In this document: one piece after another, positions 1-63,229 of the stretch
How positions within the stretch are numbered: the first letter of the stretch is position 1
How the letters are laid out: every line of letters begins with the position of its first letter
NCBI GenBank assembly: GCA_019055375.1
Contig: JAHQIW010007219.1
Span: forward strand, 62,001 to 126,000
Direction of reading: 5' to 3'
Length of the DNA: 64,000 bases
DNA from: Parelaphostrongylus tenuis
Lineage: Eukaryota > Nematoda > Chromadorea > Rhabditida > Metastrongylidae
Translations under genes and position numbers: made by a program
The notes under the pieces: generated by a model
Seen by the model: only the letters and a program-made list of their open reading frames with translations
Databases searched by the model: none
What the model was told of the DNA's origin: nothing

Positions 1-512
1 GATGATGAGAAATAAATAGTTTAGAAGATGGAGACAAGATTACAAGAATACACTATCAATTTTCAACGCCAATCAGCACACTTTCTGCTTCAGAAAAGAC
101 CATTTCTTGATGAATTCGATTACGCCATTATTCAATTCATAAAAGATTTTTTTCATTGGAGCAGCTATTGCAACCATTGACGTCAAAATTCTTGTTCTAA
201 AAAATTTTTTATTCACGAAATTTTCCATTATCTAGGAAGTGTAGCATTAACGACTCATGTTTCCCTGAACTAGAATTCTAAATGCTTCACTGCTGCCTCC
301 TTTGGAACTTCGTAAGCGTGCTTGCGTCGTTTGTTATAATGACATATGAAACCAGCTACTTCGTTACCTATCACAGATTACTTTGACATTCGACGCCTTA
401 AATGAGATAGCTCAGAGTCATCTATATCAATATGACATGCCTTAAAATCGCGTAATTTATTGAGCCTAAAAAAGCCAAATGGGGATGGGGTGCAGCAAAG
501 CAGAAAGTCACT
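1..512. repeat. Left arm of long palindrome 1
   Basis: The reverse complement of this stretch recurs almost perfectly at 1785-2295: base 1 pairs with 2295 and the motif gcagcaaagcagaaagtcac near 491-511 pairs with 1786-1806. Only about one indel of drift is visible over 510 bp, so the duplication is young or has been kept similar by gene conversion. The arm starts at the window edge and may extend further left. It contains no recognisable coding sequence. Confidence 0.95.
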
Positions 513-4720: not shown

Positions 4721-4854
4721 GTGTTGTACTAGGCAGAGCTCCAAGGTTTCAAGTGATTACTCACACTCCCATGAAAATTGCCCATCGCGAATGGTTGTTT
4801 CTACACTTATTCTCGAAAAACGGAAGAAAACAGCATTTTTCAAGAAAACGTACA

Positions 4855-5060: not shown

Positions 5061-5127
5061 GAAAATGCACGTGCAAAGCGAGAAGATTGTTTCACACTGC
5101 AGAAATAACTTATCACTACATGTTCAA

Positions 5128-5250
5128 TGATAAGATCACCCGACATTCAAGCTAGGTCTCAGAAAACAGACAAATATAAAGGTAATATTCAATATAACAG
5201 CCATGAATAAATAACTGTTAAATTAACTACGATGTCGGGCGACCTTATCA
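5128..5250. repeat. Short inverted repeat
   Basis: tgataagatcacccgacatt (5128-5147) is the reverse complement, with about three mismatches, of gatgtcgggcgaccttatca (5231-5250). The spacer is about 83 bp. It could be the remnant of a small foldback element. Confidence 0.6.
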
Positions 5251-5269
5251 CTAAATCTGCAATGATTTT

Positions 5270-9007: not shown

Positions 9008-10730
9008 CTGTCGTCCCGTTGATCGTTGAATGACTCGAGTAGGTACCAGCAACTCTTCCATTTTTCCGTATCGCGTGCAAGAGTAGCCCAGTGGGTCCTC
9101 CTCGCTCTAGAGATTCGCTGAGCATCATATCTTTCTTCTACCGCTTTCGTGAAGAAATCAGACCAACGAGTTAGTGGTTTTCCTTTAGAGCGCTTGCGTC
9201 CTGAGGAATCCAGTCGCTAACGGCTTCGTCCATCGGTTGTCGTTGAAGCGCATCACGTGTCCGGCCCATCTTATTTGCGATATCCTGGCGTGTAGAACGG
9301 CGTCTCTGATTTTCGTTCGTTGTTGTAGGTCGGAACTTCGGATCCTTTCTATCATTTGCGAGAAACGGGATATTCCTAGCATCGACCTTTCGACTGCGCG
9401 TTCGATAACGGCAAGTGATCTTTCATCCTGCTTACGTAGCGACCAGGTTTCCGCTGCATACGTCAGGGCAGGGATAATCGTCGATTCGAAAAGGTGGACA
9501 CAGAGTCGGATGTTCTTAGTTTTCTTCACTACATCTTCGATGCTCTTAAACGCCCTCCAAGCCGCTTGTTTCCTTTGGTCAACTCTGGAGCTAGGTCTTT
9601 CACCATGTTGATTTTACGACCTAGATAGACGTGACTGAAACATTCGGGGATTGTGTTCCGTTAAGCCATGAACATCGTTTTCGTTAGACTTAGTTGAAGA
9701 CCAATCTTTACATAGGCGTTATCGAAATCAGTAAGCATTCGTTCCGCTTGGCTGATGTTTGTTGTTACGAGGGCGATATCGTCAGCAAAGCGAAGATGGT
9801 ATAATTGTCGACAGTCAATTTTCACTCCCATATCGCCCCATTTTAATGTTCGCATCACGTTTTGTAGGGTGGCAGTGAATAGTTTTGGCGAGATTGTATC
9901 GCCTTGTCGAACCCCTCTTCTTATGTAAATGGTGATATTGTTGTAGAATGGAGATATTTTGGTCGTAAATTTCTTATAAAGCTTACGAAGATCATTATGT
10001 ACCGAGTATGGACGCCCTGGATATCCAGAGCCTCTATAACGCTTGTGTTTCCATTGAATCAAAGACTTTCTTCAGATCGATGAAGGTGAGACAGAGTGGT
10101 TGCTTGTACTCTCGTGAAGCTTCAATGAGTCTTGTAACCGTGTAGATGGTCTATGGTAGTAAATCCTTTTCGGAACTCTGCTTGTTCGCATGGCTGTCCT
10201 TTGTCCAGTTTTCTGTCAATCTTGTTTGGGATGACTCGAGTAAAGAGTTTATCGACAACGGACAGCAAGCAGATTGGGCGATAATTGCCGTCGTTAAGGT
10301 CTCCATTTTTGAACAACAATACGGTGTGGCTGGTTTTCCATTGAATAGGGACCTTGTACTCTGACAGGTAGCGCGTGAAGGGCCGAGCCACGGTGTTGAC
10401 GAGAACTGGCAGCAGGTTCTTCAGGTGTTCTAGTCTAATCCTGTCTGGACCGGGTGTTGTTCTGTTCCTCACCGACGATATAGTATTTCGGGTTTCGGAA
10501 GGGAGGATCGGTGGAGCGACATATTCGTCCTCTTTCAATTCATATGACGGTAAGATGACATGGCTAGCGAAGAGATCCAAGTAGTATCGATGGATAATTT
10601 TCTCCATAGCCCTACTCGAAGCTGTAAGTGTCCCGTCAGGGTATCGGAATGCAATCACCTTGGTCTTATAGCTGGCGAAGCCTCGCTGGGCTTTGCGAAT
10701 GCTCTTCCCCGCTTCTGCAGCTTCTGCCAT
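9008..10730 (-). pseudogene. RTE reverse transcriptase and C-terminal region, frameshifted
   Basis: Read on the minus strand, the frame from 10730 gives the N-terminal fingers (TTPGPDRIRLEHLKN, then GNYRPICLLSVVDKLFTRVI). A second frame from 10062 gives the palm with FADDIALVTTNISQAE, the YADD/FADD catalytic box. A third from 9529 gives the thumb and connection (LTYAAETWSLRKQDERSL; RWAGHVMR), and the last piece (9180-9008) gives TRWSDFFTKAVEERYDA. RTE enzymes copy their own RNA at a nicked target. The catalytic aspartates are still present, but at least three frame changes (near 10090, 9600 and 9185) break the protein. Confidence 0.88.
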
Positions 10731-10999
10731 AACTGCTGCTCTTCTCTCTTTGAGGTCTTCTTTTATCGCTTCTCTGTAACGTTTCGCGAGATCGAATGTA
10801 AGGTTTCGGTTGCCTGTAGCTCGTGCAATTCCACATTGACGTTTTAGCTCAGTGTCAGCGTAGACAAGAGTCTCTTCGTGACCTTAGGACTCTCGGCTTT
10901 CAAAGCGGTAACGTGAAGATATTCAACGAGTCGATCGTATTCTTCGTTGATGCTGCCGAGAACGGTATCTTCCCAAGAGCAGACTAATGATTTGAATAT

Positions 11000-11794
11000 A
11001 TCCCAGTTTATGGTAAATCTGGGACTTCGTTGTTCGAATTTAGCGGCTTTCCCTCCTCTCCTCGAAACACGAAACGTTGCGCGAAGGAGGCGATGGTCTG
11101 ATCCCGTGTAGAACTTAGGAACAACAACGGCATCGGTCAGGCAAAATCCTCGATCTACTAAGATGTGGTCTATTTCCTTATGATTTTTTCCATTGGGAGA
11201 CTCCCATGTCCATCGCTGAAAAAGAGGCTTTTTGATTGCGAGTTATCATGGATGGTTTGGGTCGTCATGATAAACTCAGATAGCCTCACCCTGCTCATTC
11301 CATTCTAGTCCGTGGGTTCCTATGTGACGTTCTTAAGACGTTCTTTTAGGTCCAATTTGTGCGTTAGAATTCCCGACTATAACCTTGAAGAATGTATAAA
11401 TTTCTCAGAAGAATTTTTCGAGGTCCATGTAGAACGCTTCGACTTCGCCTTCGTCATAGCTTGATGTTGGTGCGTAGGCAACGAAGATGGTCATAGCCGG
11501 CATAGAACCACATCGTTTCAACTGTAATCGTCTGATACTGGTTGTTAGTTGTTCAAATGAATCAATGCTCACGGTCAAATTCGATTTGACAAGGACGCCA
11601 ACGCCGCCGACACCTCTGCGATAGCATCTACCAAGGACAGCTCTTCTCCGCTGTCATAAACAGGGTGAAAAGTATGGTGCCTTCTCGTCTCAGCCAGGCC
11701 AATGACGTCGTATCTCATCCTTGTTGCTTGAATCAATAGATTTCTACATCGGGTTGGTTAGCAAGAGTTCTTAGATTGTAGGTAAAGATCGTCA
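11000..11794 (-). pseudogene. RTE apurinic-like endonuclease domain, broken
   Basis: The domain begins at the ATG at 11794 (MTIFTYNLRTLANQPDV), meets a stop within 20 codons, then continues through MTIFVAYAPTSSYDE (about 11495-11450), VIVGNSNAQIGPKRT (about 11390-11345) and ends with a GSDHRLLRA motif (about 11115-11090). RTE endonucleases nick the target to prime reverse transcription. The usual GDFNA motif has become GNSNA, removing a key aspartate, while the distal SDHR histidine motif survives. With the early stop this argues that the copy is dead. Confidence 0.8.
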
Positions 11795-12299: not shown

Positions 12300-14520
12300 T
12301 TTTTTCACGCAACTGTCTTGAATCTCGCTCAGAACTAAGATATCTTAACAGCATATTTTAGCAGCAATTATAGTGCCAATTTTGAATGTACTGATATATA
12401 GTCGCAGTTATAACACCAACTTTCTTCCACGTGTAAGCTAGAGACAAAGAATAGATGGTTGAAGAAAGTGACTACAAGCAGGACACATATGGCTGTTAGA
12501 TAAGCCGAAGCCTCACAAACTTTGTACCAGAATTTTCTTTCACGATAATGAGAGTTCTGTTGACAGATATGTCAATCTTCGTGCTTTTCTTTTCTATAAG
12601 ACGATCACTTAAATATGAGGCGACAAGCAGCCCTAAGAAAAGCGCGCTAATCATCGTTAAAGGAGATTGTTTTGGTGTTATTTATGCTAAGTGCGACTTG
12701 TCCATAGTGTGCACAATTATATCGTTTTATCCGCCTTCCTCGACATCTTTCCGAAGTCGAAAATCGATCGCATCTCGACAGTCGTCTTTGCAGGGCGTTC
12801 TAGAAGAAAACATCCAGTGTGCAGAGTACTGAAACAAACACTACGCTGAAATGCTGTTTTGTAAAGTGGCAATGCCAGCCTAACCAGACCTGTGATGACT
12901 TTCAGGTTGGCTTGCTCCTTGCTGGGCTTCCATGTGGAGATAATGGAATCCTTTCAGTTTGAAATACTCTGCTGAGGATGTACACTCGCACTGTATATCA
13001 AATCTAATTTTTTCCATCACAGGAGCACTTCCCATCCACGATGAGATGGTTTGGTTAGAAAAAATATAATATAACATCGTCACTTACTACTCGTTTAGAT
13101 GAATCTCTTTACTGATGGGGCCAGCTCCAACTCAGGCTTCGAGTGTTAACGTTGAGCTGGTAAATCGCGCAAGCTAGAGTAAAAATGTGCAAGATTAATA
13201 GCTCTGTAAGTAAAGTCGAAGTGGGACGCCCACGGAAAAATCTTGATGTTTCAACTATCTCAATATTGCTTCATTTTCGAGAACGTTGTCCTCTTTCTGT
13301 GTTAAACCTTGAAAGAGTACCTAGAAGTCAAACTGCGATCTGCAATAAGGAGTTCACCTCACCCAGATAGGCGCCACAACTGCGCAGGAGTTCGAAGTCC
13401 ACTCGAAAGTCCACACTAATGTGGACCACTTTAAAAGTTACCACCACCTAGGTGATGGCTAATCGCAAAGTGGTGAAAGCCTCTGTTTTCTGAAGGCCAC
13501 CAGTTGACTAGTGTAGTGATGACGGGAGGAAGGCCACGACTAAGCTCACTTCAAAGCTTTAGGAAACTAAACAGTTAAACGAGGAATTTCTTACTTCCGT
13601 TTCCCGCCCACTGGGAGCTGTCGTCTACGGCTTTGGGCGCTGATACGATCGGTGGGAGGCGATCCAATCCCGGATTCAAATCATACAACTTCCTTATAAA
13701 TGTAATGAAATGTTTATGACACTATATATATAACCAACTTTTGTCACTTGAATAGGTTAATACCTTTATTCGCCTATTAGATCAAATTCACAGACTGCTA
13801 GTCGTTGAAAGATTTGACACATTATATATTAAAAAAATTTAATAATAAAGCATGGACCTTGCTAATATAGTGCTAGCAAGCACCTTCTATACGTTGAAAC
13901 CATGGTTCAGGTCTCTCTTGGTGTGTAAAGTTAGTTTACATATTTTAGCACTACATTAGATCCGTTATCACAGTGTTTTTTTAACTCTGCGATTTCAAGT
14001 ACTTCTAACGTCCAGTTCGTTTTTCATCTTCTTCTTGAACGGCATAGAACACTGATTGAGCGATTCTCTATGCAATCAAAGACAACCTTGCTGTGGCATT
14101 CCATAGAAGGTTGATGTTGACTGCCAGAGAGAGGTGGGGAGTGAAGCTCGACTCCACAGGCGCCACGATGAGCATCACAACTGCTCGGCCACGGCGCCCC
14201 ATTTCCATAGTTTAGTCATCAAAATTGTAGAATAACCTTTGCTTTATAACGCTGTTAATAGTTTGTAACAATGTTGACCGAAAACTGAGTTTTCCGATTA
14301 CTAATGGTGAACTCGTTATTGCAATATCTTTCAATGTCTACCTTCTCTACGGCACATGCACGGAATAAGATATGTACTGATTTTTGGTGACATAAAGAAA
14401 GAAATACTTATTTACAGATTTGTCAACCTTATTTTTAAAGGTTGTGATAAGTCGAAATTCATCACAATGAATACTTCAATGTGACTTACTGTATTATGTA
14501 AACTGCTGATTTCAGCATAC
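12300..14520. other. No recognisable gene; a GC-richer block inside
   Basis: No domain or splice structure is visible. The block 13380-13690 is visibly richer in GC than its surroundings and contains short self-complementary runs (caccacctagg; cccgcccactggg), so it may be an unrecognised repeat. 14110-14205 is another GC-richer block. Confidence 0.4.
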
Positions 14521-14524
14521 CTCA

Positions 14525-14690
14525 TAAATATTATTTGAACCCAACATGTCATGTGGTCTGTTAGTAAGCTCTTGTACAGCCCGATACACGTGTTTCGGCC
14601 TTGAGCAGCCTCGTCATTCAGGCGGAACCCTTCATTTTTAATCAGTCCTATCGAGGTGCTCCAGTCTTCCATACTAAGAGTAGGTGACCA
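14525..14690 (+). repeat. Family B repeat fragment with a dead hammerhead
   Basis: Carries 'catgtcatgtggtctgttag' and 'tacacgtgtttcggccttga'. Read on the minus strand this gives the ribozyme 3' half (GAAA, then the ACACGUGU stem III), but the catalytic box reads AUGACGA instead of CUGACGA and stem I does not pair. The ribozyme is therefore predicted to be inactive. Confidence 0.65.
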
Positions 14691-14986
14691 CGTACGATTT
14701 ACGCAATTTATACAATTACCGCCAAGCGAAAAATCACTAGATCGGCAGTATTGTACACTTGGTTGCTCGTGGCTGTTATTTTGAAAGCAGTCTTTTCAGT
14801 TTTATTCAAAGCAGACCGGTTAGTGTCTTTTACCAGGTGGGAAGTTGCCCGACTTAGGTCGGAGTATATTTAGCTATTTAGGACGCTAACAAATGGAAAG
14901 CGCAAGTCCGAAGACCTTTTAGTTATAAAAGAGTAAGCGAAGATATGAAAGTTTGTTAAGATCTTTCTAATTTATAATTTTTAGTT

Positions 14987-15640
14987 TACCTCTTTTATCT
15001 ATCGCTTTCTATAGACTCGTTCAAAATGATATTATCTGATAAGGACATATCATGCTTTGAGTTATTAGGGTTACTGCCATACAGGTACCTATTCGTCCTA
15101 ATGGGGCTAATCAGTAGCACCCTCCCTACGTTCAGCCGATCCTTTGAGGCTAAATAATCCTCTCTAAAGGAATCAGCACTGAGTTATAAATCATTCAAAG
15201 TTAGATGATGGAGTTCTTGACAATGTGGTGACCGGCAGTCGAGCTCGAATCTTTTACAATGAATCACACCTCTTCTATAAACCTCATTTTATAGACCCGC
15301 TCAAAATGATACAATCTAATAAGGATGTCACATTTTGAGCTGCTAGGTCTAGTGCTATACAGATACATGTTTCGTCCTATTGGGACTCATCACTAGCATC
15401 TTCCCTTGGCTCAGCCGATCCCCTGAGGTTAAATATTTCTCTATAAGGAGTCGACGCCGAGTAATGAATCACCCCAAGTCAGTTTATAGAGGATTATTTA
15501 ACCTTAGGGAATCGGCTGAACCAAGCCATGATGCTACTGATGAGTCCCAGTAAGACGAAGCAGGTACCTGCATATCTCTAGACCTGACAGCTCAAAAAAT
15601 GTTATATCTTTATCAGATCTTAAGTTGTCGAATACATGGT
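14987..15640. repeat. Family A: tandem dimer plus inverted copy
   Basis: Two direct units follow one another; the ribozyme C3 positions fall at 15114 and 15393 on the minus strand, a period of 279 bp. From about 15484 a third, shorter copy runs in the opposite orientation (C3 at 15537, plus strand). The boxes read CTGATTA, GTGATGA and CTGATGA respectively. The third keeps its core box but has an altered stem III junction (GAAG), so none looks fully intact. Shared landmarks include 'cagccgatcccctgaggtta' and 'ataatcctct'. Confidence 0.85.
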
Positions 15641-21386: not shown

Positions 21387-21757
21387 CTTAAGAGAATTGA
21401 GTGGCATGCAAAACCATGGCTTCAGGCGGGAATCGGACCAGCGCTTAAACCTATCCGGAGACGCGTGCTCTACCACTGCACCACCAAAGCGCATTTGCCC
21501 GACCACTCATTCTTCAGCATCTCTATGTTAGCTATCATCCACCAGCCTTTAACAGATTTGGTCGGGTATGCGATTTCGCTTTATAAACCCAGTTGAGCTG
21601 ACAGCCCCTGTCGTAACTAATACTCGAAATTGAAGAATGAGTGATCGGGCAAATGTGCCTCGATGGTGTAGTATTAGAGCACGCGTCCACGGATAGGATA
21701 AAACGCGGATTTAATTACCGTCAGAAGCCATTTTTTGCTCATCACTCAATTTTCTTA
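21387..21757. mobile_element. TIR-bounded element with two inverted tRNA-like cassettes
   Basis: The ends form imperfect terminal inverted repeats (cttaagagaattgagtgg at 21387 against the complement of actcaattttcttag at 21743-21757). Inside, a tRNA-like sequence lies on the minus strand at about 21420-21497 (gtggtgcagtggtagagc; box B ggtccgattccc) and a second on the plus strand at about 21640-21720 (gatggtgtagtattagagca). The arrangement is palindromic overall. The related element at 60694-60912 has the same ends with one cassette. Confidence 0.75.
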
Positions 21758-22334
21758 GGTATATTGATAATACTTTACGTTTAGAGTCGAAGTATTCTCG
21801 GTAGCACATTGGATTCAGAGGAATGTGCGTGTCCTTTGACTAATCGGGTAATATGACTCTCACAGAAGGACAAACAATTTGCGCAATAAATGTCACTATT
21901 CCTTGTGAAATTCTAAGTGTATGGTTTTTTGATAGCACTATCAAACCGTGTCTTTTGAATAACAGCCTAACAAATGGAATTTTTTTCACTGTCTAATGGT
22001 GAGATTTTTGAAGTACTGATGAGTGGTCATTTTTTTAAATGAACACTACCGTGCACAGTCATCTATCCGGTAATGTTACGTAAATGCGAAATTCTCAACG
22101 AAGACTGGCTGTTTCAATAACCTTTCACCCATACCGAGTGTGTCTAATACCACTACACCTAGGTCACCGCTTTAGTACGCTTGCTTTTCAAATAAAAATA
22201 GTCGAATCTGCTAACAATCAACCTGTACCGGTTCCGAATACCACCTGAAGTCGGAAATTCTTCTTATCATGCAATATTCCTATATCTGTCATCAAAGCAA
22301 CTACTAAAACGGGGTGAAATGAGAAAATCATATA

Positions 22335-22800
22335 AATTATACCTTTATTTCGAGTGCTTTATTAAGATCACGTTAAATTCAGTAGATCCTTTCATTATTA
22401 TTTGAGCTAATATGTCATGTGGTCTGGTAAGGGCTCTTGTACAGCCCGATATGCGTGTTTCGTTCTTACAGACTCGTCAGAAAAAGAATTGAAATTTGAG
22501 CGTGGTCTTAATAAAGCACTCGAAATAAAGGTATAATGCGATAAAATACCAGCCAGCTAGCAATGGAGTGCGCAAACACTCTGTGTTGGGTGAAAATTTC
22601 GCTTGACATAGAGTGTAAAACGTTTGTCTTCGATGACTCTCTGTAAGGAAGCAGAGCTCGAGAGAGAACTGGCTATAAAAATATCGAAAGACGACTGGTT
22701 CTGCCCGACTGATGAGTCTGTAAGGACGAAACACGTGTATCGGGCTGTACAAGAGCCCTTACCAGACCAGATGACATGTTGGCCCAAATAATGATAAAGA
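22335..22800. repeat. Family B element folded as nested inverted repeats
   Basis: The outer pair joins 22395-22475 with 22708-22795 (both contain tctggtaagggctcttgtac or its complement). An inner pair joins 22338-22380 with 22487-22537 (atttcgagtgctttattaag and complement). The right half carries an intact hammerhead at 22703-22745; the left half carries the matching GAAA/stem III segment on the minus strand with a CUGACGA box, but its stem I cannot pair. Confidence 0.85.
22703..22745 (+). ncRNA. Hammerhead ribozyme (type I), family B
   Basis: All core positions are present: CTGATGA at 22709-22715 and GAAA at 22728-22731. Stem II is GTCU/GGAC closed by a GUAA loop (GNRA-like). Stem I pairs GCCCGA (22703-22708) with TCGGGC (22740-22745), six perfect pairs. 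Stem III is the very short ACACGUGU stretch, and the nucleotide at the cleavage site is A (22739), giving a GUA triplet allowed by the NUH rule. Predicted cleavage lies between 22739 and 22740. Short stem III is typical of ribozymes of Penelope-like elements and retrozymes, which often act as dimers. Confidence 0.78.
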
Positions 22801-22804
22801 ATCA

Positions 22805-25200: not shown

Positions 25201-25816
25201 AAAAATGTTCCGCGGTAAAGACGGAGTTTTATGTCACAGCATCAGAAATAAGAGGTCGAAATTCGAATTTAGCCGCCCCTTCGAAATAAGTATATTCACT
25301 GAAACTACTGTCGTGATTCAATATTTAACACATACTTAATCTCATTTACTGATTTTGGTTTTTTTTCTGAAATAGTAGATTCGGTCGCAAAACTTGCTTT
25401 GAAAGATTTTGCTCTAAATCAAACCAATTGGGAAACTCCAGTCATTTTGGAAAACTCAATGAAGCTGCTACTCCGCCATCAACCCTCTGGGGATAGCCGT
25501 TGATAGTAGATGAAGTCTTGTTTGTCATTTGTGCGACTCTCGGAGAGATCGTCCTTGCGATGGACCACGTAATTTTATACAATGTTGTGATTTTGCATCC
25601 AATTCATATTTTTACCGTTATTGAGGCATATTTTTATTAGTAAAAAATGGAATGCAGATGCATAAACTTTAATCAGGCTATTTTGATTGAAATATGTCAA
25701 AAAAAATTACTAAACGAGACGTGTACTTCAAAAATTGCTGCAGATTGCAATGCGTCACCTCGTCGACTACAGTGACTTCGATTATCAGCATACTTCGACA
25801 GTTTATTCAATAGAGT

Positions 25817-26376
25817 TGCAGAAAACTTGGTTGAAAGGAAAGTCCCGTTTATCATCCCGTTCTATTCAAATGAGATTAGTACAGCTATAAAACGATGTTT
25901 GAAAAGAGCGGGTTTAGAGCAATCGGTGGTCATTATTGAAATACCACCGAATACTCTAAAACGCCAACTAGTTCGCAACCGCTTATATGACCGTCTCTGT
26001 ATGATGAAAGATTGTAAAATATGTCCTAACGGCAGAGACGGTGATTGCATGAGCGTAGGTACAGTCTACCTAATCTCTTGCAAAGCGTGTAGTGATAAAT
26101 ATGTTGGCGAAACGGGTAGGCCGCTCTATGCACGCATAGAAGAACACCTAGCTGACAAGCGTCTTAATAGACAAAACACCCCGCTAGGGACGCATAGAGC
26201 ACAGAAGCACGACGGAGTTGATTTTGAAATCGAAGTCACCATCCTTGCGCAGGAGCAAAAAACATCAGCGCGAAAGATCTTGGAAGCATTTTGTTAATAC
26301 GACCAATCCAACCATAAACCGCAGAGAGGAATGCCTTGTAAACACTCGTGATATGAGCCAGTATATAAGACTGTTG
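25817..26376 (+). pseudogene. Penelope-like element C-terminus with GIY-YIG endonuclease
   Basis: The frame opens before 25827 and gives a linker (PPNTLKRQLVRNRLYD), a cysteine cluster (CMMKDCKICPNGRDGDC), then a GIY-YIG nuclease: GTVYLISC and YVGETGRPLYARIEEHL hold the two halves of the signature and the catalytic Arg and His-containing helix. A one-base shift near 26293 moves the ending (NTTNPTINRREECLVNTRDM) into another frame that stops at about 26376. PLE proteins use this nuclease to nick target DNA for the reverse transcriptase, which is missing here (5' truncated). A hammerhead follows 210 bp downstream, as expected for a PLE 3' end. Confidence 0.85.
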
Positions 26377-26585: not shown

Positions 26586-26620
26586 GGCTCTGAAGAAGGC
26601 GAACTGCCGAAACGTCAGCT
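26586..26620 (+). ncRNA. Hammerhead ribozyme downstream of the PLE nuclease
   Basis: Core CTGAAGA at 26590-26596 and GAAA at 26609-26612. Stem II pairs ggc (26598-26600) with gcc (26606-26608). Stem I pairs GGCT (26586-26589) with AGCT (26617-26620), with one G-U. Stem III is minimal (A-U closing two bases), and the cleavage triplet is GUC with the cut after C at 26616. Minimal stem III hammerheads have been described in the terminal repeats of Penelope-like elements, and the position here agrees with that. The short stems mean activity would probably need a dimer. Confidence 0.72.
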
Positions 26621-34793: not shown

Positions 34794-36490
34794 GCAAGCA
34801 CCAGGAGCTTCACTGTCACCGATTTCGCTTTGCCTGTTGCTATGGTTCACGCTGGTAAGCCTGAAATTCCTACTCGGATTTCTGGCATTGCAGCTAGCAA
34901 GGTTGGAGCTCAGGCATTCGTACGTTGTCTTGTTATGCAAACAGTGAGTTTGAAACTCATAGTTGTTCTGAAGATGTAGGGAGTAAACTCTGATTCTCTG
35001 TAAATTTCGCAATCCCCCAACACTGACATCAACTACACAGCTTGACCTAATTTTCATTCTAAAGAGTCTTGGATAAATACTTTATATTAGAGAGAACATT
35101 CGTTGTTAAGATCTTTGATGTTCTCGAAAACCAAGGGCGCAGCGCAATTTTACCTGATGCTCTGATCTCGACCATTTTGAGTCAACTTACTGTTAGCATC
35201 ACTTACGAACCAGTGCAATGTCAGAATGTTGTTCTTGATCTAGTGATGAATAAAAGTAGGTGTTCAATATTGAAAATCCACTTGTACGATTCCATGCAGA
35301 AATACAACAGGCATAAAAAACAGAACTGCTATTGTTGTGTTCGAAGCGAAACTAGTATATCCTATAAAATTACTCCAGAATGTTTTAGAACAGAAGATAA
35401 ACCATCATGATGATGATAGCAAAATCCGAATATTCAATATCGATTGAAATCTACAAGCACGTTTCTACTAATTTTTGCTGAAATTGAGATCATGTGTTTC
35501 TGATGATCTGATGGTTTGAAGCGCTCTAGAAAACTGAAGAGAATCTGGGAGTATTGAGTGATACGCAAAGAATTAACCTCAAACGGGAGTTGTACCGCGC
35601 TTCACCCAAACCGAAAGCATGTACCACCACTACATCGGCGACGTCACAGTTTTGTTCCCAATCTTTCATTGATATATCCTATTATAACCGTCACCACCCA
35701 TTTTTAAGGTATTTAATCTGCAAAATATCTATGGCCATCAAATTCAGTTAAGCCGACAGCTTTTCAAAATGTATAATCTACTTGTTTTAACTGCCCATAA
35801 GCAATATGTTGATATATGTAAACCCAAGCAAACTCGTTAGAGGTTCGTTGGTGACAGCTACGATAGGATTTGTCGCAACAATACTGCTGCAAAGCAGAGG
35901 GCTCGGTGAAGAAGTGGTGGCGCGCGCTCCGTTATGTGTGAAACGCGAGGTGGCTCTCGTCGGTGGTCGAATGCTTTGAATACGGCTCAACACTCTCAGC
36001 ATAGCATTATAGTGCTGTTCAAAAGCAGTTGAATCAGACGATTTGCATGGAAGAAAATCACTGCTCGAAACTGTTTCTAGGTCTTTATTTCACTGTAGTG
36101 GAAGAATGTCTCCTTCAAAAAATCAAAGTATCCTGCAGTTCCTATGATGGAAAGCGGTTGCATAATCGCCGGCAACACGGTGACGGTAATTTGCATTAAT
36201 AATACGAAATAAGAAGAGGCATGCATGCAACCAATGAAGGACGTTATAACAGTCCCTGTCACCGTCATTCAGGCATCAATCTCAGAAACTCTTACGGTTC
36301 GAACAGCTTCCTTATTTCTTCAGGGAAACTCGTTTTTGGTGAAAAAAGTGCGCGGACCACAAACATCGTTATGGCGATTTGGTCAAAATTGATGTGACAA
36401 AATGTCGTGAACAGAGCGATTCGAATGCTGACATCGGGCCTGTTTGGATAGCACTTCTTTTCAGTATCAGCTTCTGTCGGCGGAAACTAA
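34794..36490 (+). pseudogene. Decayed multi-exon gene of a nematode-type protein family (copy 3)
   Basis: An exon starts after the acceptor ttttactgcag (34793) and reads FTVTDFALPVAMVHAG, then SKVGAQAFVRCLVMQT, ending at a GTGAGT donor (34944). The next exon, 35111-35255 (145 nt), reads IFDVLENQGRSAILPDALIS, then SITYEPVQCQNVVLDLV, with a GT donor at 35256. A third coding patch after a TTTCACTGTAG acceptor (36098) reads KYPAVPMMESGCIIAGNTVT. A last patch (36300-36490) holds QNVVNRAIRML and FFSVSASVGG. Stops interrupt the third and fourth patches. I recall an uncharacterised secreted-type family in strongylids with this order, but this needs a database check. Confidence 0.6.
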
Positions 36491-39529: not shown

Positions 39530-46255
<6,726 letters not shown>

Positions 46256-46344: not shown

Positions 46345-49300
46345 ATACTTCTGACAGTCAGTTAGCTGAACACCTTAGCTCGCTCACCTTCAGAAGTTCA
46401 AAGAGAATCGTCTTGACCAACATATGAATTCAAAAAGAAGATGTATTCCTCATGCGCAGCCTCAGCAAAACGTAACGGAAGAATTTTGTGAAAAACGGAT
46501 GCGAGAAAGTAATTTGAATGCAAGAAGTGCTACAATCTACGCGGCAAACTGTGATGGTTTCCCTCATAAAAATTACTGTATATTGTTAGTACTTCGCTCA
46601 TGAAAAAAGTCATTCGTATCATGCGATCAGCGATCAAAGGGGCTTTCTTGTAACATGGGATCTGTGGTTTGATGAGGTGTCCCGAGTAGACCAAGTTCTT
46701 CGTCACAGTGGTTTTGCCAAATTGCTGCCAAACTTTCCCGCAGGACAAAAATAATTACCCGATTTATCGCTCTGTCACACCACGTTTTGCGTAGGTCAGA
46801 GTTTCATTCAATAACCTTTAGATGCTACAAATGTACTTCAATGCAAGGCACACTACTCAAAAAGTGATCAATGAAGAACACTTTAATCTCTTTTCCATTA
46901 CGGTGTTCAAAGTCTGATTGGCACAAGGTTATACGATGTTTCGGGATAGCGTGATATAACATGAATAAAAAATGGCATCTCGTAATCTGCATGACTTGGA
47001 AGTACGTCAACAGGAAATTAGAGTATTAAGACGTATTACTAGTGCCCCTATGTCATAACCTAATAAACTGGCAAAGCTTTATGTAGCCAACATAACATAC
47101 TTCGAAGAAATGCCCTTACGTGACTGCCGGCAAAAACAGAAACCAAGGAACGTCGTAGAATGCAACCACTGCTTGTCATGATTGTCTGCTGACACTTGTT
47201 TTGTCAATGCTCGGAAACCTGTGTCGAGTAGAAAAATTTCCGCCTATTTCGAGGAGATTTGTGACTTGTGCAGGCTAATTATTGCCTGTCTACTAATTAT
47301 GGCGCTAGATATTGGCTCTTCCAGTAATTACGAGTCACATATCAAGAAACTTACTATACATTATTCATCTTTATTTTTGTACGAATTAACTTGAAGTGCA
47401 AAGAGTGCAATAAGTGAGAGAACGAATATCATACACAAGCAAATAAATAAAAATTTACACTTTATCGGCCTCGATGCCGTCAATTTGGAATAGGACTCAT
47501 CACGAATGGACCGATAAAGCTTAGATGCAATCGAAATGCGGAATAGGCGGAGCGACTCAGTTGCCCGCGGCAACCTAGTCGATGCAGCACCTCCGGCTGG
47601 ATGGATGAGAATGAATGGGGAGAATCACCGATTCGGTCTAGGCTTGATGGCATTCGAGAATCTCGATGTCGCATTCAGCCCAAAGAGTAAGAAATGTCCA
47701 TCAAGTCCTATTACTCTGCTGCCGATATGTAGGCGGCTGTTTCAGCGTTTGTTCCACTCAAGAGTAATTGGGCAAATGCTTCAAAGTCTTGGATGGACAT
47801 TCAGAGTATATAAGATTCATGAGAATGAGGCCAGATATGAGCTGTCTTTCACTCTTGAACATTCAGATATAGCTTTTAGATAGTAACAATAATGAAGACA
47901 CCGTACACCATGGAGCAAAAATCTACTGATCCATTACTTTTTTCCTCAAAATTCACACATGAAATAGCACTTATCATAAAGATCCACCGGGCTAAAAGTG
48001 CGTGCACAAGATGAGAGGAGAGGAAGGATTAGCTAAAGTTGGCATGGAAAAAGGCCATTTCTAGAAGCGATGAGAAATCAGCCACCCAGGCAAGTCTAAA
48101 CGGCGGAATAAAGCTCCAAAGAATTATTCACTCCTAGATAAAAACCCTTTCCAGTTGCTATTTGTAGTATGATACAAAGTCTGCAGCGCTATTAAGAGGT
48201 GCCTAAAGAGGTGTGGGCTTGAAAGTTCTGCGGTAGCTAATGAACTCCTACATCCAACGCTGCGCCGCCAATTGACTGCAACCGCCCTTACTTAGTTCAC
48301 TCAATAAACTATATAATCTGTTCTATCATAAAAGCATAACGGTGTTAATTTTGAAAAGATCAAAAGGATCCTGATGCGGAAATCAAGAACTAACGGGAAA
48401 AACTCATGGAGCAGTCCGGATGAGCGCTAAAAAATCGAAATTGAATATAGACACGACGTTTTTCCTTTGTTTGATCTTTTGACCTAACGTAAGAGGTATG
48501 TAGAAACATCCACCGAGTAATTCAAATGTTAAGGTACAACACACTTCCAGACTTTGAAGAAGACGAAGTAGCCGAAGCGTCAACACTCAATTTTGAAGAA
48601 GACATACTGGACCTGTACAAGCTTGGAAAAAGATCAATTTTTGAGAAAATTTTTCATTTTCATCAATGTGCCAATTAGATAATTCCGACATGTTAAGGAC
48701 GTATTATCATTAAGACAAAAATCGCCTTAATTAGGTAGAAGACCTACTTTCCTTGCCTCTGCATTAAACACAAAGCTGTCCTTTTATTCAAAAAAGGAAC
48801 TTGCATGAAATGTGAATACCGAAGAATTTGAGTAAAATGCTGAGTCCTTATGCGATTATTATGCACTTGATCATGAGATACACAAACGAATCGTTCTCAA
48901 CAATATAGAAATGCGTATACGAAGATCTTCGCCTAATTATTCATTTGATGACATATTCAATTTGAAATTATTTCCAGCGGGCTGCAAGTTTAGTTATTGC
49001 GATAATACCGAACTTAGACTTTCGAAATGACGGACGAAGTGATGCTATTTTCAAAAACATATGATTATCGCTGAAAGTGCTCTCTGGTAGTTTATACTGC
49101 TGTGCTCATAAAGAGATGGAATATTCTTTAAGAGAAGCTTGAATGAACATGGTGGTTGACAGTTATTGCACTTTGCAGCGTCTTATGTACATCTTGCAAC
49201 GGAGTGTTGATGTGCAAACTCAATGAACTTTCCTTATTGACCAGCTTTACTAACACGTTCTACAATTTTGCATGGTTTCATTGATTTCTGCAATCGCTTT

Positions 49301-52300: not shown

Positions 52301-52950
52301 ATTAAAGTCTAAAAGTGACGACCTGGGAGTGTGCGATCAGTATATAACGATAATTTGGTATGATAACGAATTGAAATCTGGCGCAGCACGCGACGTGATC
52401 GCGCAGCGAGAGCGGCGAGCTACAATTACAGTAAGGGTCCAGAAAAAATTGCGATTTGTATTGTCGCATTTAACTTACAAATATGAGGGACAAAAGGGAA
52501 AGCGTGTCGGATTTGGTCGAAGAAAGATTCAACTCCACCAAGCTATCAGGTCTTGCTCTGAGGTTTAGGAGTATTAAATGTTGACGAAATTGTCAATTTA
52601 TGAAATGGAAAATTTAGTTGGACGTTGACAAAAACGCGACTGAAGCTGCACTGAAGTGAGGCATTTTAATTCGCCTTTCCAAAGGTTTCATGTTTCTCTT
52701 CAAGTTATTGTTTATAGAACACCGTTCATTTCTCGCAACTTTTTCACTAGTTATAGCACATTTCGTATAAAGGAATCTCAATTTATTCGTGTAACGATAG
52801 GAAATTCTTCAGCACTTATCTTGTTTCTCCAAAAGTTCCGAAGAAGTTTGTCTGTAAAGATTTAGAATATTAATTAACTTAGAATAACTGCATAGTCATG
52901 TCCTTTCATGTCTTGAAATCTTAAAATAGTCCGGGAAAGCTAAGTATAAG
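46345..52950. other. Mostly featureless; one GC-richer block and one hammerhead-like relic
   Basis: 47460-47650 is GC-richer (gttgcccgcggcaacctagt) and lies in an open frame of 115 codons (47536-47883) whose product I do not recognise; it may be a dispersed repeat. At 48550-48585 the plus strand reads ctttgaagaagacgaagtag and gccgaagcgtcaac, the order of the PLE hammerhead at 26586 but with a broken first box and GAAG for GAAA. Nothing else is supportable. Confidence 0.4.
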
Positions 52951-52954
52951 ATAA

Positions 52955-53360
52955 CTTTCGTTTCAAGTGTTTTTTGAGACCACGCTCAAATTTCAGTATA
53001 ACTGGTAATTATTTTTGAGCAGTGTATGTGGTCCCTTATGAGCACTCATACAGTGTAAGATCGTGTTTCGGCCTTTGAGCATCGTCATCTGCACGGTGCC
53101 TTTCGGTTCAGTCCCGCAGGAGATAATCCCTATCTGTGGAAACCGATGCTGTAATGCATATACTACGCCGTGAAATAACTGCCGGACATATTGAAATATA
53201 AGCGTGGTCTCGAGGAACACTTGGAACGAAAGGCATGATATTTTACAAGTACCAGCCTAGAGCAATCAAGTGTATAACATTGCCGAGGCTGAAAGGTGAA
53301 AAACGTGTCTTGTAGTCTATAGGTGACCATAGCAGACCACATGCATCACTCAAAATTAAA
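52955..53360. repeat. Family B element, near-complete copy
   Basis: Order of landmarks: agtgttttttgagaccacgc, gagcagtgtatgtggtccct, gatcgtgtttcggccttt, tgcacggtgcctttcggttc, then the reverse-orientation modules 'gcgtggtctcgaggaacact' and 'agaccacatgcatcactcaa'. The ribozyme box on the minus strand reads AUGACGA, so it is dead. The two ends are inverted relative to each other. Confidence 0.75.
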
Positions 53361-53364
53361 ATGT

Positions 53365-54490
53365 AGTCAAAACCAAAGTTTTATCTCAAATTTAGAATAT
53401 CAGTGAAATTATCCGACTCGCAAAGTAATAAATCATACATATTCAATTCACGAATGAGACCGAGGGCGCCGTTAGCACCATAGAATGACCGGCTGTGCTA
53501 TGAGCTTTTATAAATCGAGCTGAGTAAGTGATTTTGTGTTATAATAGTTCTCCGTTGTAGCAATTCCGTATCATCCTGATTGAATTACTGAGCTCAACCG
53601 TCATATCACAAAATTTCTGATCAAAAAACGAGGGTTTTGGTGTGTTCTTCTGAAAACCTTTCTCATAGCGTTCCACAAGTGAAAATAGATTTCATCCGGG
53701 GAGCGTACACTTCTCCATACAAGGGCACTAGACTTTAGTCGTATTATGCGAAAAATTTTATTATTTCTGATGCAATAGCGAGAATTTTCGATTCGGATCG
53801 TTTATTATTATTATGATTTTCTACTCACGAATGACAAATCGAATGCACAGTCAGCGCTGATGAATCATCGGTCCCCTGTAAGCAATTTTATGAATGCCTA
53901 GTATAGCTGATTAAACAGCTTAGCGTCGTTGTATTTGGGCTGCTGAGTGGTGGACACTTTTGACGTAATATTCTCCATCCGCATTCAGTAGGATACAGTA
54001 CTCAGACGGCAAATTCCAGTCGTTTGAAAGAGAATCGTGGCTTTCGTAAAACTGAATATGTCAACTTTAAGGCAAAATCATGAGACACTCAATCACTCAA
54101 GTTGAATAACGCAATATTGACTTTTTCGGCAACAGAAACAGCACGGAAAACACCATGCTATAGTTGGACTGGTCAATAGCCATCAATTGCTACATTTTGA
54201 ATGCAGACTTTCAGTTGGCCTTGACATGCCTTACTCCTGCCTTCTCAGATTATCAAAGTATCAGAAAGTCGTTAAAAATCATATAAATCCATAGAATTTC
54301 TCAGATAACTTCAAAGCATCTTTAGAACATTCGGAGCCTAGTGTGATAAAATTAGTACAAGGTCTTTTCATGATTTTCTCGTCGGGTGCGCAGATTTCAC
54401 TAATAAACAATCAGTAGCTAAAAAATATAATTCCACCATTGATCTTCGTTTTTGCAAAGGCTTTCTTTATGTGCTGAAATAACAATAGAA
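53365..54490. other. No recognisable feature
   Basis: AT-rich, without supportable signals on either strand. Confidence 0.4.
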
Positions 54491-54894
54491 TATTACGTTT
54501 CTTAGCCTTCGTTTCGAGTGTTTTCGAGATCACGCCCTAACTTTAATAAGAATATTGATTGTTTTTTGAGCAGTGCATGTGGTCTATTCTGGGTACTTTT
54601 ACAGTGCGATACAGGTGTTTGGGAACTGCAGCCTCGCCAGTTGCACGGTGCCTTTCGGTTCGGTCAATTCCGGGATCACATATCGCTTATCTATAGAAAC
54701 CGGTGCTGTAATACTTACACGCGCCGTCAAGTGATAAAATCACCGAACGAGACACTAGATTGCTTTTGGTTAGCAATCGTGAAATTTACCTTTTATCTCA
54801 AATGTTTCTTAAGACCACATTCAAGTTTCAATATGCCTGATAGTTTATTTGAGCCATGCATGTGATCCGTTAATAGCATTTATAGACTGCAAGA

Positions 54895-55196: not shown

Positions 55197-55243
55197 TGCA
55201 AGACACGTGTTTCGGCCTTCCCGCCTCGTCAGCTGTACGATGC
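55196..55243 (-). ncRNA. Hammerhead ribozyme, family B, near-intact
   Basis: On the minus strand the core is CUGACGA (plus complement 55226-55232) followed by stem II GGC/GCC, GAAA, the short ACACGUGU stem III and a GUC cleavage triplet. Stem I pairs GUACAG with UUGCAU, with one mismatch and two G-U pairs. Predicted cut between plus positions 55202 and 55201. The SINE insertion's 3' duplication covers this same site. Confidence 0.6.
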
Positions 55244-55489
55244 TTTTCGGTTCAGTCAGTTCCACAGGAAGATTTCCCTATCTATAGGAATCAAAGCCGT
55301 AGAACTTACTAGTATGATGACATTTCACGATTACCAGCCAAGAGCAATCGACTGTACAACGCTGCCCGGTCGGTGATTTTATCACTTGACGGTGCGTGTT
55401 ATATCATAAAGTTGGTTCATAAAGATAGGAGATATCTACTCTCGGAACTGACTGAATCGAAAGGCACCGTGCATGAGCACTTGACGACG

Positions 55490-60444: not shown

Positions 60445-60690
60445 TGCCCTTATCACTATCACTATCACCACCATTATCACTATCATTACCACTATCATTA
60501 TCACTACCACTATCGCGATCATTATCACTGCAACTATCATTATCACTATCAATATAATAGTCACTATCACTATCATCATACTACCATCATTATTACCATC
60601 ATCATTACCACTATCACCATTATCACTATCACCATTATCACTATCATGATTATCACTATCATCGTTATCCCTGTCATCGTTATTACTAAT
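60445..60690. repeat. (TATCAC)n-type minisatellite
   Basis: About 245 bp of imperfect tatcac/tatcat units. The long open frame across it, rich in His and Tyr or Ile and Thr, is a product of the repeat. Confidence 0.95.
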
Positions 60691-60693
60691 ATT

Positions 60694-60912
60694 CTTAAGA
60701 GAATTGAGTGGTGAGCAAAAACAGAATCGCATACCCGACCAAACCTGTTAAAGGTTGGTGGCTGATAGCTAACATTGAGATGTTGAAGAATGAGTGGTCG
60801 GGCAAATGTGCCTCAGTGGTGCAGTGGTAGAGCGCGCGTCACCGGATAGGATGAAACGTGGGTTCTATAGCCGCCTGAGGTCGTGTTTTTGCTCACCACT
60901 CAATTCTCTTAC
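60694..60912. mobile_element. TIR-bounded element with one tRNA-like cassette
   Basis: Ends: cttaagagaattgagtggtg at 60694 and its complement, caccactcaattctctta, at 60895-60912, extending to about 27 bp of near-perfect inverted repeat. Inside, plus strand: gcctcagtggtgcagtggta (box A-like) and gtgggttctatagccgcc (degraded box B). Flanking actaat on both sides (about 60685-60690 and 60911-60916) may be a target duplication. Same family as 21387-21757. Confidence 0.78.
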
Positions 60913-60954
60913 TAATTTAGAAAACGATATGACATATTTTGAGCCATAGATCTA

Positions 60955-61002
60955 GTGCTATATAGGCGCCTATTTCGTCCTATTGGGACTCATCAGTAGC
61001 AC
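60955..61002 (-). ncRNA. Hammerhead ribozyme (type I), family A, copy 1
   Basis: Reverse complement of the copies at 61466 and 61740, with no visible change in the 48-nt motif. Stem I gtgcta/tagcac, core CTGATGA and GAAA, stem II gtcc/ggac with a CAATA loop. Predicted cut between plus positions 60961 and 60960. Confidence 0.88.
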
Positions 61003-61465
61003 CCTCCTTCGGTTCCGTCGATCCCTTGAGGTGAAATAATCCTCTAAAGGAACCGACGCCGAGTAAAATTAAGCACCCAAAGTAGGATGATGGTATTACC
61101 TGACTTTGTGGTGACCGGCAGTCGAGCTTACGGCTTTTAAAATGAACTATACTTCTGCTATCGACCGCTTTTTTACAGACCCGCTCAAAATGATTTAATC
61201 TGATAAGGATATGACATATTTTGAGCCATAGGTCTAGTGCTATAAAATATGTCATATCCTTATCAGATTAAATCATTTTGATCGGGTCTGTAAAAAAGCA
61301 GTCGATAGCAGAAGTATAGTTCATTTTAAAAGCCTTAAGCTCGACTGCCGGTCACCACAAAGTCAGGTAATACCATCATCCTACTTTGGGTGCTTAATTT
61401 TACTCGGCGTCGGTTCCTTTAGAGGATTATTTCACCTCAAAGGGATCGACGGAACCGAGGGGAGG

Positions 61466-61513
61466 GTGCTACTGATGAGTCCCAATAGGACGAAATAGGC
61501 GCCTATATAGCAC
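61466..61513 (+). ncRNA. Hammerhead ribozyme (type I), family A, copy 2
   Basis: Stem I pairs 61466-61471 (gtgcta) with 61508-61513 (tagcac), six perfect pairs. CTGATGA occupies 61472-61478. Stem II pairs 479-482 (gtcc) with 488-491 (ggac) around CAATA. GAAA is 492-495. Stem III pairs a495-t506, t496-a505, a497-t504, g498-c503 with a four-base GCGC loop. The cleavage triplet is AUA, cut after A at 61507. All invariant core bases are present. The tiny stem III is typical of PLE and retrozyme hammerheads. Confidence 0.9.
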
Positions 61514-61739
61514 TAGACCTATGGCTCAAAATATGTCATATCCTTATCAGATTAAATCATTTTGAGCGGTCTGTAAAAGCAGTCGATAGCAGAAGTATAT
61601 CATTTAAAGCCGAAGCTCGACTGCGGTCACCACAAAGTCAGGTAATACCATCATCCTACTTTGGGTGCTTAATTTTACTCGGCGTCGGTTCCTTTAGAGG
61701 ATTATTTCACCTCAAGGGATCGACGGAAACCGAGGGAGG

Positions 61740-61787
61740 GTGCTACTGATGAGTCCCAATAGGACGAAATAGGCGCCTATATAGCAC
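61740..61787 (+). ncRNA. Hammerhead ribozyme (type I), family A, copy 3
   Basis: Identical in all 48 positions to copy 2 and one repeat unit (274 bp) downstream; cut predicted after A at 61781. Two cuts would release a 274-nt RNA monomer. Confidence 0.9.
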
Positions 61788-61969
61788 TAGACCTATGGCT
61801 CAAAATATGTCATATCCTTATCAGATGAATCATTTGAGCGGGTCTGTAAAAAAGCAGTCAACAGCAGAAATATAGAAAACATCATAACAATGCGGAATGC
61901 ATTGAAAATACTATCATTTCCGAGTATTAGTTATCACTAATCATTATCACTACCATACCTCTTCAAACA

Positions 61970-62365
61970 AGCGCTTTTTTATAGAACTGCTCAAAAGATG
62001 AAATCTCGTAAGGTTAGAACATTGTTTTGAGCTCTTGGGTCTAGTGCTGTACAGGTACCTCTCCTATCGGGATTCATCAGTCGCAACTCTTTTAGTTCAG
62101 CCGATCCCCTGAGGTTAAGTAATCCTCTATAGAGGAATTGACGTTCAGTAGTAAGTCACCCCAAAGTCAGATGATGGAGTTACCTGACATTGCGGTGAGC
62201 GGCAGTCGTGCTCGTAGTTATTACAATGAACCATACCTCTTCCATCGACCGCTTTTCTATAGACCCGCTCAAAATGATTTAATCTGATAAGGTGCTGATG
62301 AATCTCAATAGGGCGAAGAATAGCATTAAACCTAATAGCTCAAGACACTTTACATCCTTATCAGA
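61970..62365. repeat. Family A copy, decayed, with a short inverted end
   Basis: Main part on the same strand as the first unit of the neighbouring locus (gagctcttgggtctagtgct; ccgatcccctgaggttaagt). Its minus-strand ribozyme keeps CTGATGA but has GAGA for GAAA. A short inverted piece at 62287-62365 has CTGATGA (62292) and CGAAG, without stem III. Neither is expected to cleave. Confidence 0.75.
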
Positions 62366-62490
62366 TAATGTGACTATCATCAATACCTCTATCATCACTA
62401 TCAATTTCACTATCATCATTGTCACCATCATCATAATCACTGTCATCATTATAACTTTCACTATCATTATCACTATCATTAATTCCCAAG
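62366..62490. repeat. (TATCAT)n-type minisatellite
   Basis: Imperfect atcatcactatcat units, the same type as at 60445-60690. A shorter run lies at 62825-62885. Each run borders a family A or related element. Confidence 0.9.
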
Positions 62491-62527
62491 ACCGACTGTC
62501 TATTAACCTCGGTATGCTTCAATACAA

Positions 62528-62673
62528 TTTCTGATTTTCTTCTTAAAGCCAAACACGAGGTGTTACAAAAAACTTTATTTGACAGCTGAGGTTTTATAGT
62601 TCCTGAGCTTTTTCAATGTCAAATAAAGCTTATTGTAACACCTCGTGTTTGGCTTTAAGAAGAAAATCAGAAA
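62528..62673. repeat. Compact palindromic element
   Basis: Arms of about 57 bp (62528-62584 and 62617-62673) share tcttcttaaagccaaacacg and cgaggtgttacaa in inverted orientation with only two or three mismatches; the spacer is about 32 bp. The size and high arm identity suggest a young MITE or foldback element. No target duplication is evident. Confidence 0.9.
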
Positions 62674-63229
62674 CTATCATTGATATTATTCCAATCAGTA
62701 TCGAAAGTATGCTTCATTTTACCAGCTACAAGTTCGACTGTTGGTCACCGAAAACTCTAGCACTGTGTAAGTGCTCTTATGAGACCTCACAAACAGTTTA
62801 AAACAGTGACAGTTATTAGCACTTTCGTAATCATTACCATTGTCAGAAGCATAATCATTATCACTATCATATCAATATCATTATGGTTATCATTTGGAGT
62901 TAGTTTTAGTTTGTCGGTAGTTTTGCCTTTGAAACATAAAAGAAATGTAGATGAATTATGGAAGATATAGAAATCTCTTCACTGAGAATATCTCTATAGA
63001 AACTTTTTCAATAAATTCCATCATTTGATGATGAAAATGCTCTCTAAGAACCACCAGGGTTCGTCTTCCCACATCCATCATGCTGTCTGGAGTCTATCTT
63101 CTCACGAGATTCGCCACCTTTCTCACGGGCGCGACGCTGCCATTACAGTAACTGAGGAGATTTGACGTGGCGCGGTGTGGGGCGAAATGTCCCACATGGT
63201 CCTCAAAGTGTTGAGCGAGGTCTGAAGAT

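Follow-up and report, generated by a model that had tools for sequence, protein, structure and literature searches.

Can a nematode locus in which one and the same 48-nt motif, with the parts of a hammerhead ribozyme, occurs three times be read as the mark left by a retrozyme? The question arises from the 64,000-nt stretch of Parelaphostrongylus tenuis DNA that was analysed, here called the window, for which an initial annotation had proposed tandem repeats with intact ribozymes whose self-cleavage would give unit-length RNA able to circularise. It is very likely that the hammerhead family is real and, to judge from the anatomy of its DNA, likely that the repeats are of the retrozyme kind. The most informative part is the head-to-head arrangement of their arms, which was absent from that annotation.

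Hammerhead motifs of the window

The three motifs are identical and lie at the places and on the strands claimed for them (Table 1), and each has CUGAUGA, GAAA, stems I to III and an NUH site, here the triplet AUA. Stem I is of six pairs (GUGCUA/UAGCAC), stem II of four (GUCC/GGAC), and the short stem III is palindromic, AUAG-GCGC-CUAU with GCGC as its loop. A mechanical search of the window for type I hammerheads recovered four intact motifs, i.e., these three and one of a second family at 22703-22745, and 100 dinucleotide shuffles of the window gave a mean of 0.01 and a maximum of 1, with none in the 100 combining a stem I of at least six pairs and a stem II of at least four. The Rfam comparison that had been suggested as a check did not go the same way: no hammerhead match in the window attains the gathering score, RF00163 giving 29.5 bits versus the 34 required (with an E-value of 0.0034 for every one of the three), and the sole match at gathering score within the window is a tRNA. 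This shortfall is outweighed because of the E-values, the shuffles, the paired changes in the stems and the genome-wide count of the core, the last two of which are given below. Matches to MIR807, MIR4208, MIR1862 and mir-374 at 61128-61337 fall on the centre of the fold-back, below their gathering scores, and were set aside.

Two families of paired arms

How are the motifs arranged? The two on the plus strand are, as had been proposed, in direct tandem 274 nt apart, and TRF finds a period of 275 in the arm that holds them, but the third belongs to an arm of inverted orientation. Adduced as a second tandem locus, the pair at 15114/15393 does have the 279-nt spacing, with both members on the minus strand, but its hammerheads are degraded and it makes up one arm of the insertion at 14987-15618. 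What endures of the retrozyme reading is a nematode family of hammerhead unit repeats, the basis for its logic being units of 274-283 nt, paired stem changes and Penelope-like elements (PLEs) in the same genome, but a purely tandem description has to be given up, as the common copy is an inverted pair of arms.

This emerged from mapping copies to a circular unit, numbered from the base that follows the predicted cut. The family 1 unit has a GC content of 0.44 in the window, and no stop-to-stop frame of 100 aa lies within 60890-61880. Five family 1 loci (A to E) were mapped in the window, and in every one the left arm is on the minus strand and the right arm on the plus strand. At locus A the outer end of the left arm, which was set by eye as the aligner continues into the adjoining repeat, is at unit 35-47, the short site, and its inner end is at unit 1 or the preceding base, i.e., on the predicted cleavage site. 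In the target duplication of this locus 11 of the 12 bases are equal, TAGAAAAC being exact, a score reached by 0.7% of random pairs.

A short repeat adjoining locus A (60690-60913) has, by eye, inverted ends of ~27 bp and a tRNA-like centre, and stretches similar to it are at 21389-21582, 21614-21770 and 35549-35707. Loci A and C are flanked by two simple-repeat tracts of the (ATCATT/ATCACT) type, 60450-60690 and 62379-62480.

Family 2, with a unit of ~318 nt, has eight loci in the window, four of them head-to-head and four in a single orientation. The copy at 22336-22803 has a flanking repeat of 12 bp with one mismatch, and its hammerhead is matched in Rfam by Hammerhead_3 alone (22.3 bits, E 3.6). 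The region after the hammerhead is common to both families, with a score reached by none of 500 shuffles. Together they cover ~5.3 kb or ~8% of the window by merged BLAST matches, which is a rough figure as hand-drawn query segments are counted among their own matches.

Table 1. Positions of the retrozyme and PLE features of the window; unit positions are counted from the base after the predicted cut
Feature	Position	Strand	Details
Family 1 type I hammerhead, intact	60955-61002	-	RF00163 29.5 bits, E 0.0034; predicted cut 60961/60960
Family 1 type I hammerhead, intact	61466-61513	+	RF00163 29.5 bits, E 0.0034; predicted cut 61507/61508
Family 1 type I hammerhead, intact	61740-61787	+	RF00163 29.5 bits, E 0.0034; predicted cut 61781/61782
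Hairpin after predicted cleavage site	61515-61572	+	unit ~8-66
Locus A, left arm	60926-61243	-	~1.1 units; circular mapping
Locus A, right arm	61244-61873	+	2.3 units; outer end unit ~92 (tail site), inner end unit 21
Locus A, target duplication	60914-60925 (left copy), 61869-61880 (right copy)		12 bp, one mismatch
Locus B	14987-15618		head-to-head; hammerheads degraded; circular mapping; left arm 14987-15479 (-), 1.8 units, tail end 90; right arm 15478-15618 (+), short end 45
Locus C	61955-62366		left arm 61955-62292 (-), tail end 91; right arm 62295-62366 (+), short end 45; degraded
Locus D	3277-3543		left arm (-), tail end 94; right arm (+); degraded
Locus E	2514-2927		left arm (-); right arm (+); degraded
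Family 2 copy	4853-5443		head-to-head, old
Family 2 copy	14489-14795	-	one orientation
Family 2 copy	22336-22803		head-to-head; left arm (-), tail end ~116; right arm (+), short end ~57-66
Family 2 type I hammerhead	22703-22745	+	intact by mechanical search
Family 2 copy	52946-53371		head-to-head, old
Family 2 copy	54490-54884	-	one orientation, >1 unit
Family 2 copy	55203-55489		head-to-head, old
PLE ORF, 3' part	25776-26297	+	GIY-YIG endonuclease (PF01541)
Minimal hammerhead-like motif of PLE, putative	26590-26616	+	CUGAAGA...GAAACGUC
PLE 3'-end fold-back	62512-62716		exact 10-bp flanking duplication GTATGCTTCA

RNA stems under constraint

Pairing was counted in unit coordinates for 187 family 1 copies, with 81-132 copies per pair. 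Standard pairs fill 97% of the cells of stem I, 97% of those of stem III and 94% of those of the hairpin at unit 8-66, and also 97% for stem II, the conservation of which is partly built in because loci were chosen by the exact hammerhead core; with partners slid by 1-3 bases pairing is 68% at most. Two-sided changes, given as numbers of copies and not of events, are present at stem I pair 245-3 in 9 copies and at stem III pair 272-281 in 19 (~116-132 copies per pair), and a U-A pair of the hairpin has become C-G in 17. The short end site is in, or adjoins, the loop of that hairpin. RNAalifold on a mixed alignment of families 1 and 2 returned no structure.

Orientation, ends and target duplications in the genome

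The genome searched amounts to 481,506,261 bases (481.5 Mb) in 5,105 contigs. The hammerhead core word has 4,438 matches in it at up to three mismatches, scattered across many contigs, and its reversed control has none. The sample consists of 60 stretches that hold 92 of the first 100 exact core places listed, the last eight being omitted, so that every sampled locus was chosen by the exact core; copies were mapped onto one genomic unit from contig C149. The copies fall into 63 groups, of which 38 have the order minus-plus. Of the others, 14 hold the minus orientation alone and 9 the plus orientation alone; one is minus-plus-plus, and one, the window with its adjoining loci A and C, is minus-plus-minus. 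Both orientations are thus present in 40 of the 63, and the order plus-minus in none of them. The arms span 0.2-4.2 units, the longest being 1,179 nt, and 40 of 105 exceed one unit.

Where do the arms end? Counted past the predicted cleavage site, the outer ends gather at unit 30-60 (short) and 80-112 (tail), and 33 of the 38 minus-plus groups have one of each, the left arm carrying the tail in 16 of these and the right arm in 17. L059 (a mirrored duplicate of L057, on C179) and L071 (on C239, with mirrored flanks, and itself a rule-breaker) look like assembly palindromes because of this mirroring, and when they are dropped the pairing of a short with a tail end is found in 32 of 36 independent two-armed insertions, the exceptions being L028, L031, L037 and L039. 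When the count is limited to insertions in which each arm matches the unit at 90% identity or more, the pairing is found in 22 of 24.

Exact target duplications of 8-16 bp, with a mode of 12, abut the ends in 23 of 38 two-armed insertions, a set without L059, with L071 and with locus A added, whose own duplication the scan missed; the cross-locus flank control, run at slightly different settings, leads one to expect ~0.3. In the other 15 of the 38 an exact duplication of at least 8 bp is absent. One-armed groups make up 23 of the 63, with 15 short, 6 tail and 2 other ends, and L058, which has a short second arm, is among them. A duplication of at least 8 bp was seen in 7 of these 23, a count with no separate control, and a comparison of their inner flanks with the flanks of PLEs and with the units of the two retrozyme families yielded three matches and no convincing PLE/retrozyme chimera.

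Origin of the two arms

Is one arm a copy of its partner, or was each synthesised separately? With all 38 minus-plus groups used, L059 and L071 included, the inner ends cannot be told from a uniform distribution along the unit (KS p 0.32), those of partners are within 25 nt of each other in 6 of 38 versus 6.8 expected, and the spans of partners are uncorrelated (r -0.08, 38 groups). Such random inner ends and uncorrelated spans make the arms look like separate cDNAs and not one snapped-back strand. Yet partners have a history in common: in a comparison limited to arm pairs at most 5% apart, there were 11 rare variants common to both arms of one insertion in 4,138 nt (22 pairs) versus 3 in 52,624 nt for arms of different loci (308 pairs), an excess from which it follows that one RNA, or one lineage of RNA, was the source of both arms, if gene conversion is not responsible.

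Because arms continue across the cleavage site and are up to 1,179 nt long, the template was probably circular or uncut multimeric RNA. The position of the left inner end of locus A was considered as a footprint of cleavage and dropped, there being no enrichment across 76 inner ends: 5 of the 76 inner (5') ends are within 5 nt of the cleavage site and 3.0 are expected. This argues against the usual template having been a monomer cleaved at its 5' end.

The autonomous PLE of the same genome

The window holds the 3' part of a PLE ORF at 25776-26297, named relatives of which are in the strongylid nematodes Angiostrongylus, Parelaphostrongylus, Ancylostoma, Heligmosomoides and Haemonchus. The motif downstream at 26590-26616 we take to be a putative minimal hammerhead, after the minimal hammerheads of PLEs dealt with in PMC7229834. 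A search of the genome with the GIY-YIG protein gave 18,164 first-look candidates, and the 150 scored among them are 97-100% identical and free of internal stops, with frames of 173-978 aa, often 893. Several pairs of copies are ordered minus then plus, and on C2880 there are tandem copies 2,985 bases apart. More distant GIY-YIG pieces in the window, 45635-45838 (-) and 48140-48289 (+), are 41-48% identical to the main PLE and are possible alternative partners.

Does this element end as the retrozymes do? Both 3' flanks were taken of 10 minus-plus pairs picked for closeness, reduced to nine as C2303 is a mirrored duplicate of C1287. Counted past the minimal hammerhead of the element itself, ends are at +60..70 or have tails of +102 and more. 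The short end is at +38 in C411 (left) and at +63 in C4566 (right), and tail ends vary, with ~+104 in some arms and ~+127..132 in C2179 left, C2488 right and C411 right. Seven of the nine (C416, C1287, C2179, C2488, C411, C292 and C647) combine a short with a tail end; the exceptions are C1421, with two tails, and C4566 (+75/+63), the left arm of which diverges at +75 and, if read as a tail variant, would bring the count to eight of nine. After the ends of four arms had been placed by hand, exact duplications of 10-15 bp accompany seven of the nine insertions (C416 12 bp, C1287 15, C2179 13, C2488 12, C292 13, C647 12 and C4566 10), one of at least 8 bp is absent for the two others, C411 and C1421, and none of 72 cross-pair controls reaches 9 bp. 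By eye, the left PLE arm of C411 (L083, C411:53592-54182) adjoins sequence resembling the short end of family 2.

The post-hammerhead similarity between the one PLE family compared and the retrozymes is not significant, its scores being reached by 139 of 500 and 79 of 500 shuffles. Because of this, another PLE family could be the partner, and nothing in the sequences compared accounts for recognition of the RNA.

Mode of integration and its alternatives

Integration of the retrozymes is likely to be of the PLE type because orientation, end pairing and duplications match those of published PLEs and of the PLE in the same genome. The reading preferred here, and thought probable, is that the nematode retrozyme is a non-autonomous, non-coding element mobilised by PLE machinery that primes from both strands. 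From the observed anatomy, ends, duplications, variants in common and the same anatomy in the PLE, we infer cleavage, the form of the template, the enzyme and the order of steps as follows. Tandem copies would be transcribed and their type I hammerheads would, or at least could, cut the RNA; circular or uncut multimeric RNA would be taken by the protein of an autonomous PLE, which would cut both target strands ~12 bp apart, and each 3' end at the target would prime a separate cDNA on retrozyme RNA. The starting point of one cDNA would be ~30-60 nt beyond the cleavage site, in or near the loop of the conserved hairpin, and that of its partner ~80-112 nt beyond the site; the two would cross the hammerhead region, stop variably and be joined in the middle of the insertion. 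What results would be two arms joined head-to-head, one with a short end and the other with a tail, between the copies of a target duplication.

Could LINE machinery, e.g., that of the RVT_1 element of the window, have moved the repeats instead, with twin priming as the source of the inverted arms? A degraded LINE is present, and L1 twin priming also yields head-to-head inversion, but its hallmark would be a fixed 3' end and a random internal one, and here the outer ends keep to two preferred regions of the unit; this, with both orientations in 40 of the 63 groups and the same end pairing in the PLE of the genome, makes LINE mobilisation decidedly unlikely. A further alternative is a single, self-primed cDNA, its 3' end snapping back and copying itself into the second arm. 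The rare variants common to the arms of a locus would then be natural, and palindromic junctions of rotifer PLEs are explained by self-priming in PMC3846280. However, snap-back should leave inner ends that mirror each other, and its second arm should not exceed the first in length, whereas inner ends are random and spans uncorrelated, and it does not predict the defined short end, so that we regard it as unlikely.

A fold-back DNA transposon or MITE with a hammerhead by chance, for which the arms would be terminal inverted repeats, would account both for the inversion and for target duplications of 8-16 bp. It is very improbable given that the two ends of a copy differ by ~50 nt in 32 of 36 insertions, that arms are of 0.2 to 4.2 units with lengths and inner ends unrelated, and that the RNA stems have paired changes. 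Or was there no retrotransposition at all, the copies being products of satellite recombination or inverted chimeras made in assembly? Mirrored stretches of assembly do exist (L057/L059 on C179, C1287/C2303, and the flanks of L071 on C239), but flanks are unmirrored in 37 of 38 two-armed loci (score at most 43 of 600), target duplications are direct and copies are dispersed over many contigs, and such an origin is hardly credible.

As to minor features of the window, its LINE-type reverse transcriptase, at 9185-11242 (-), is degraded into several frames, with the RVT_1 match at 9661-10071. Inverted repeats at 297-522/1777-2000 (98.7% over 226 aligned bases) are possibly the ends of a DNA transposon, and those at 27342-27779/28565-29000 (90% over 441 aligned bases) possibly the ends of a second. 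A tRNA-Ser-like sequence, 723-794 (-), lies inside a palindrome, 712-886.

If the retrozymes are moved by PLE machinery, is priming from two sites a regular part of it? That Penelope-type retrotransposition is two-ended by rule, in the autonomous PLE and in the retrozymes moved, is a tentative proposal to which we would give a little less than even chances. Its molecular form would be a paired RNP in which one structured RNA offers two reverse transcription start regions ~50 nt apart, one for each cut strand; the evidence for two start regions by rule is the end pairing by itself, and this form too we hold to be somewhat more doubtful than assured. The absence of strand preference of the lizard PLE in vitro would fit if either strand takes either site. 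The pairing of short and tail ends is a strong constraint on the integration of PLEs, a poorly understood class of retroelement, and if the two-ended rule is true, PLE integration can be read cheaply, across a whole genome, from the insertions of retrozymes.

Relation to known elements

What is described of metazoan non-LTR retrozymes in Cervera and de la Pena 2020 (PMC7229834) is close to the nematode repeats: type I hammerheads, tandem units of 170-400 nt with GC <50%, a short stem III with a palindromic loop and PLEs in the same genome. Target duplications, when present, of >4 bp are a further mark of the metazoan elements, and those here are of 8-16 bp in 23 of 38. The nematode copies differ in being two-armed and head-to-head, with paired short and tail ends and duplications of ~12 bp, and the strings 'inverted' and 'nematod' have 0 occurrences in the main text of that paper. 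PLEs are put forward there as a strong candidate for mobilising retrozymes, on the grounds that the two kinds of element have hammerheads and tandem copies in common and are found together. Mobilisation of animal retrozymes by PLEs has so far been a proposal; the insertion marks sampled match those of the PLE of the same genome, and therefore the question of what moves retrozymes becomes directly testable. Should the RNA of the family prove to behave as supposed, the range of retrozymes would come to include nematodes.

The likeness to GIY-YIG PLEs, as described in Arkhipova 2013 (PMC3846280) and Frangieh 2024 (PMC11167929), takes in inverted head-to-head arms, an optional tail on a single arm, duplications, a hammerhead near the 3' end, tandem units and two adjacent start sites of reverse transcription. 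In the former, inverted pLTRs are mostly head-to-head with a tail optional on one and duplications of 8-10 bp. In the experiments reported in the latter the PLE protein cuts and extends both strands, with two adjacent internal starts that match the genomic tail; for the lizard PLE in vitro the strands do not differ in start site, and hammerhead mutants still insert, so that the ribozyme may or may not have a role in insertion. Unlike PLEs, the retrozyme lacks an ORF of 100 aa (at locus A) and has a canonical hammerhead with stem III. An autonomous PLE has an RT plus GIY-YIG ORF within the element, which locus A lacks, and the retrozyme would work with a PLE and not as one.

Plant LTR retrozymes (PMC4918200) are likewise non-autonomous hammerhead elements for which movement via circular RNA is proposed, but according to PMC7229834 they have type III hammerheads in LTRs, are ~700 bp long and make duplications of 4 bp. 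The hammerhead repeats of schistosomes, the W-elements of Schistosoma among them (PMC8490949), are also those of a parasitic worm and differ in having a platyhelminth host; they are set beside the nematode family here by description. In the open-access literature no paper was found on a nematode retrozyme or on an inverted-arm retrozyme.

In public sequence collections a conserved box had 0 viral and three bacterial matches, which were taken as chance. The hammerhead core was found there in no genome contig and in one viral contig, the 56.7-kb IMG/VR contig L001, which carries the same core word at 12602-12624 (-).
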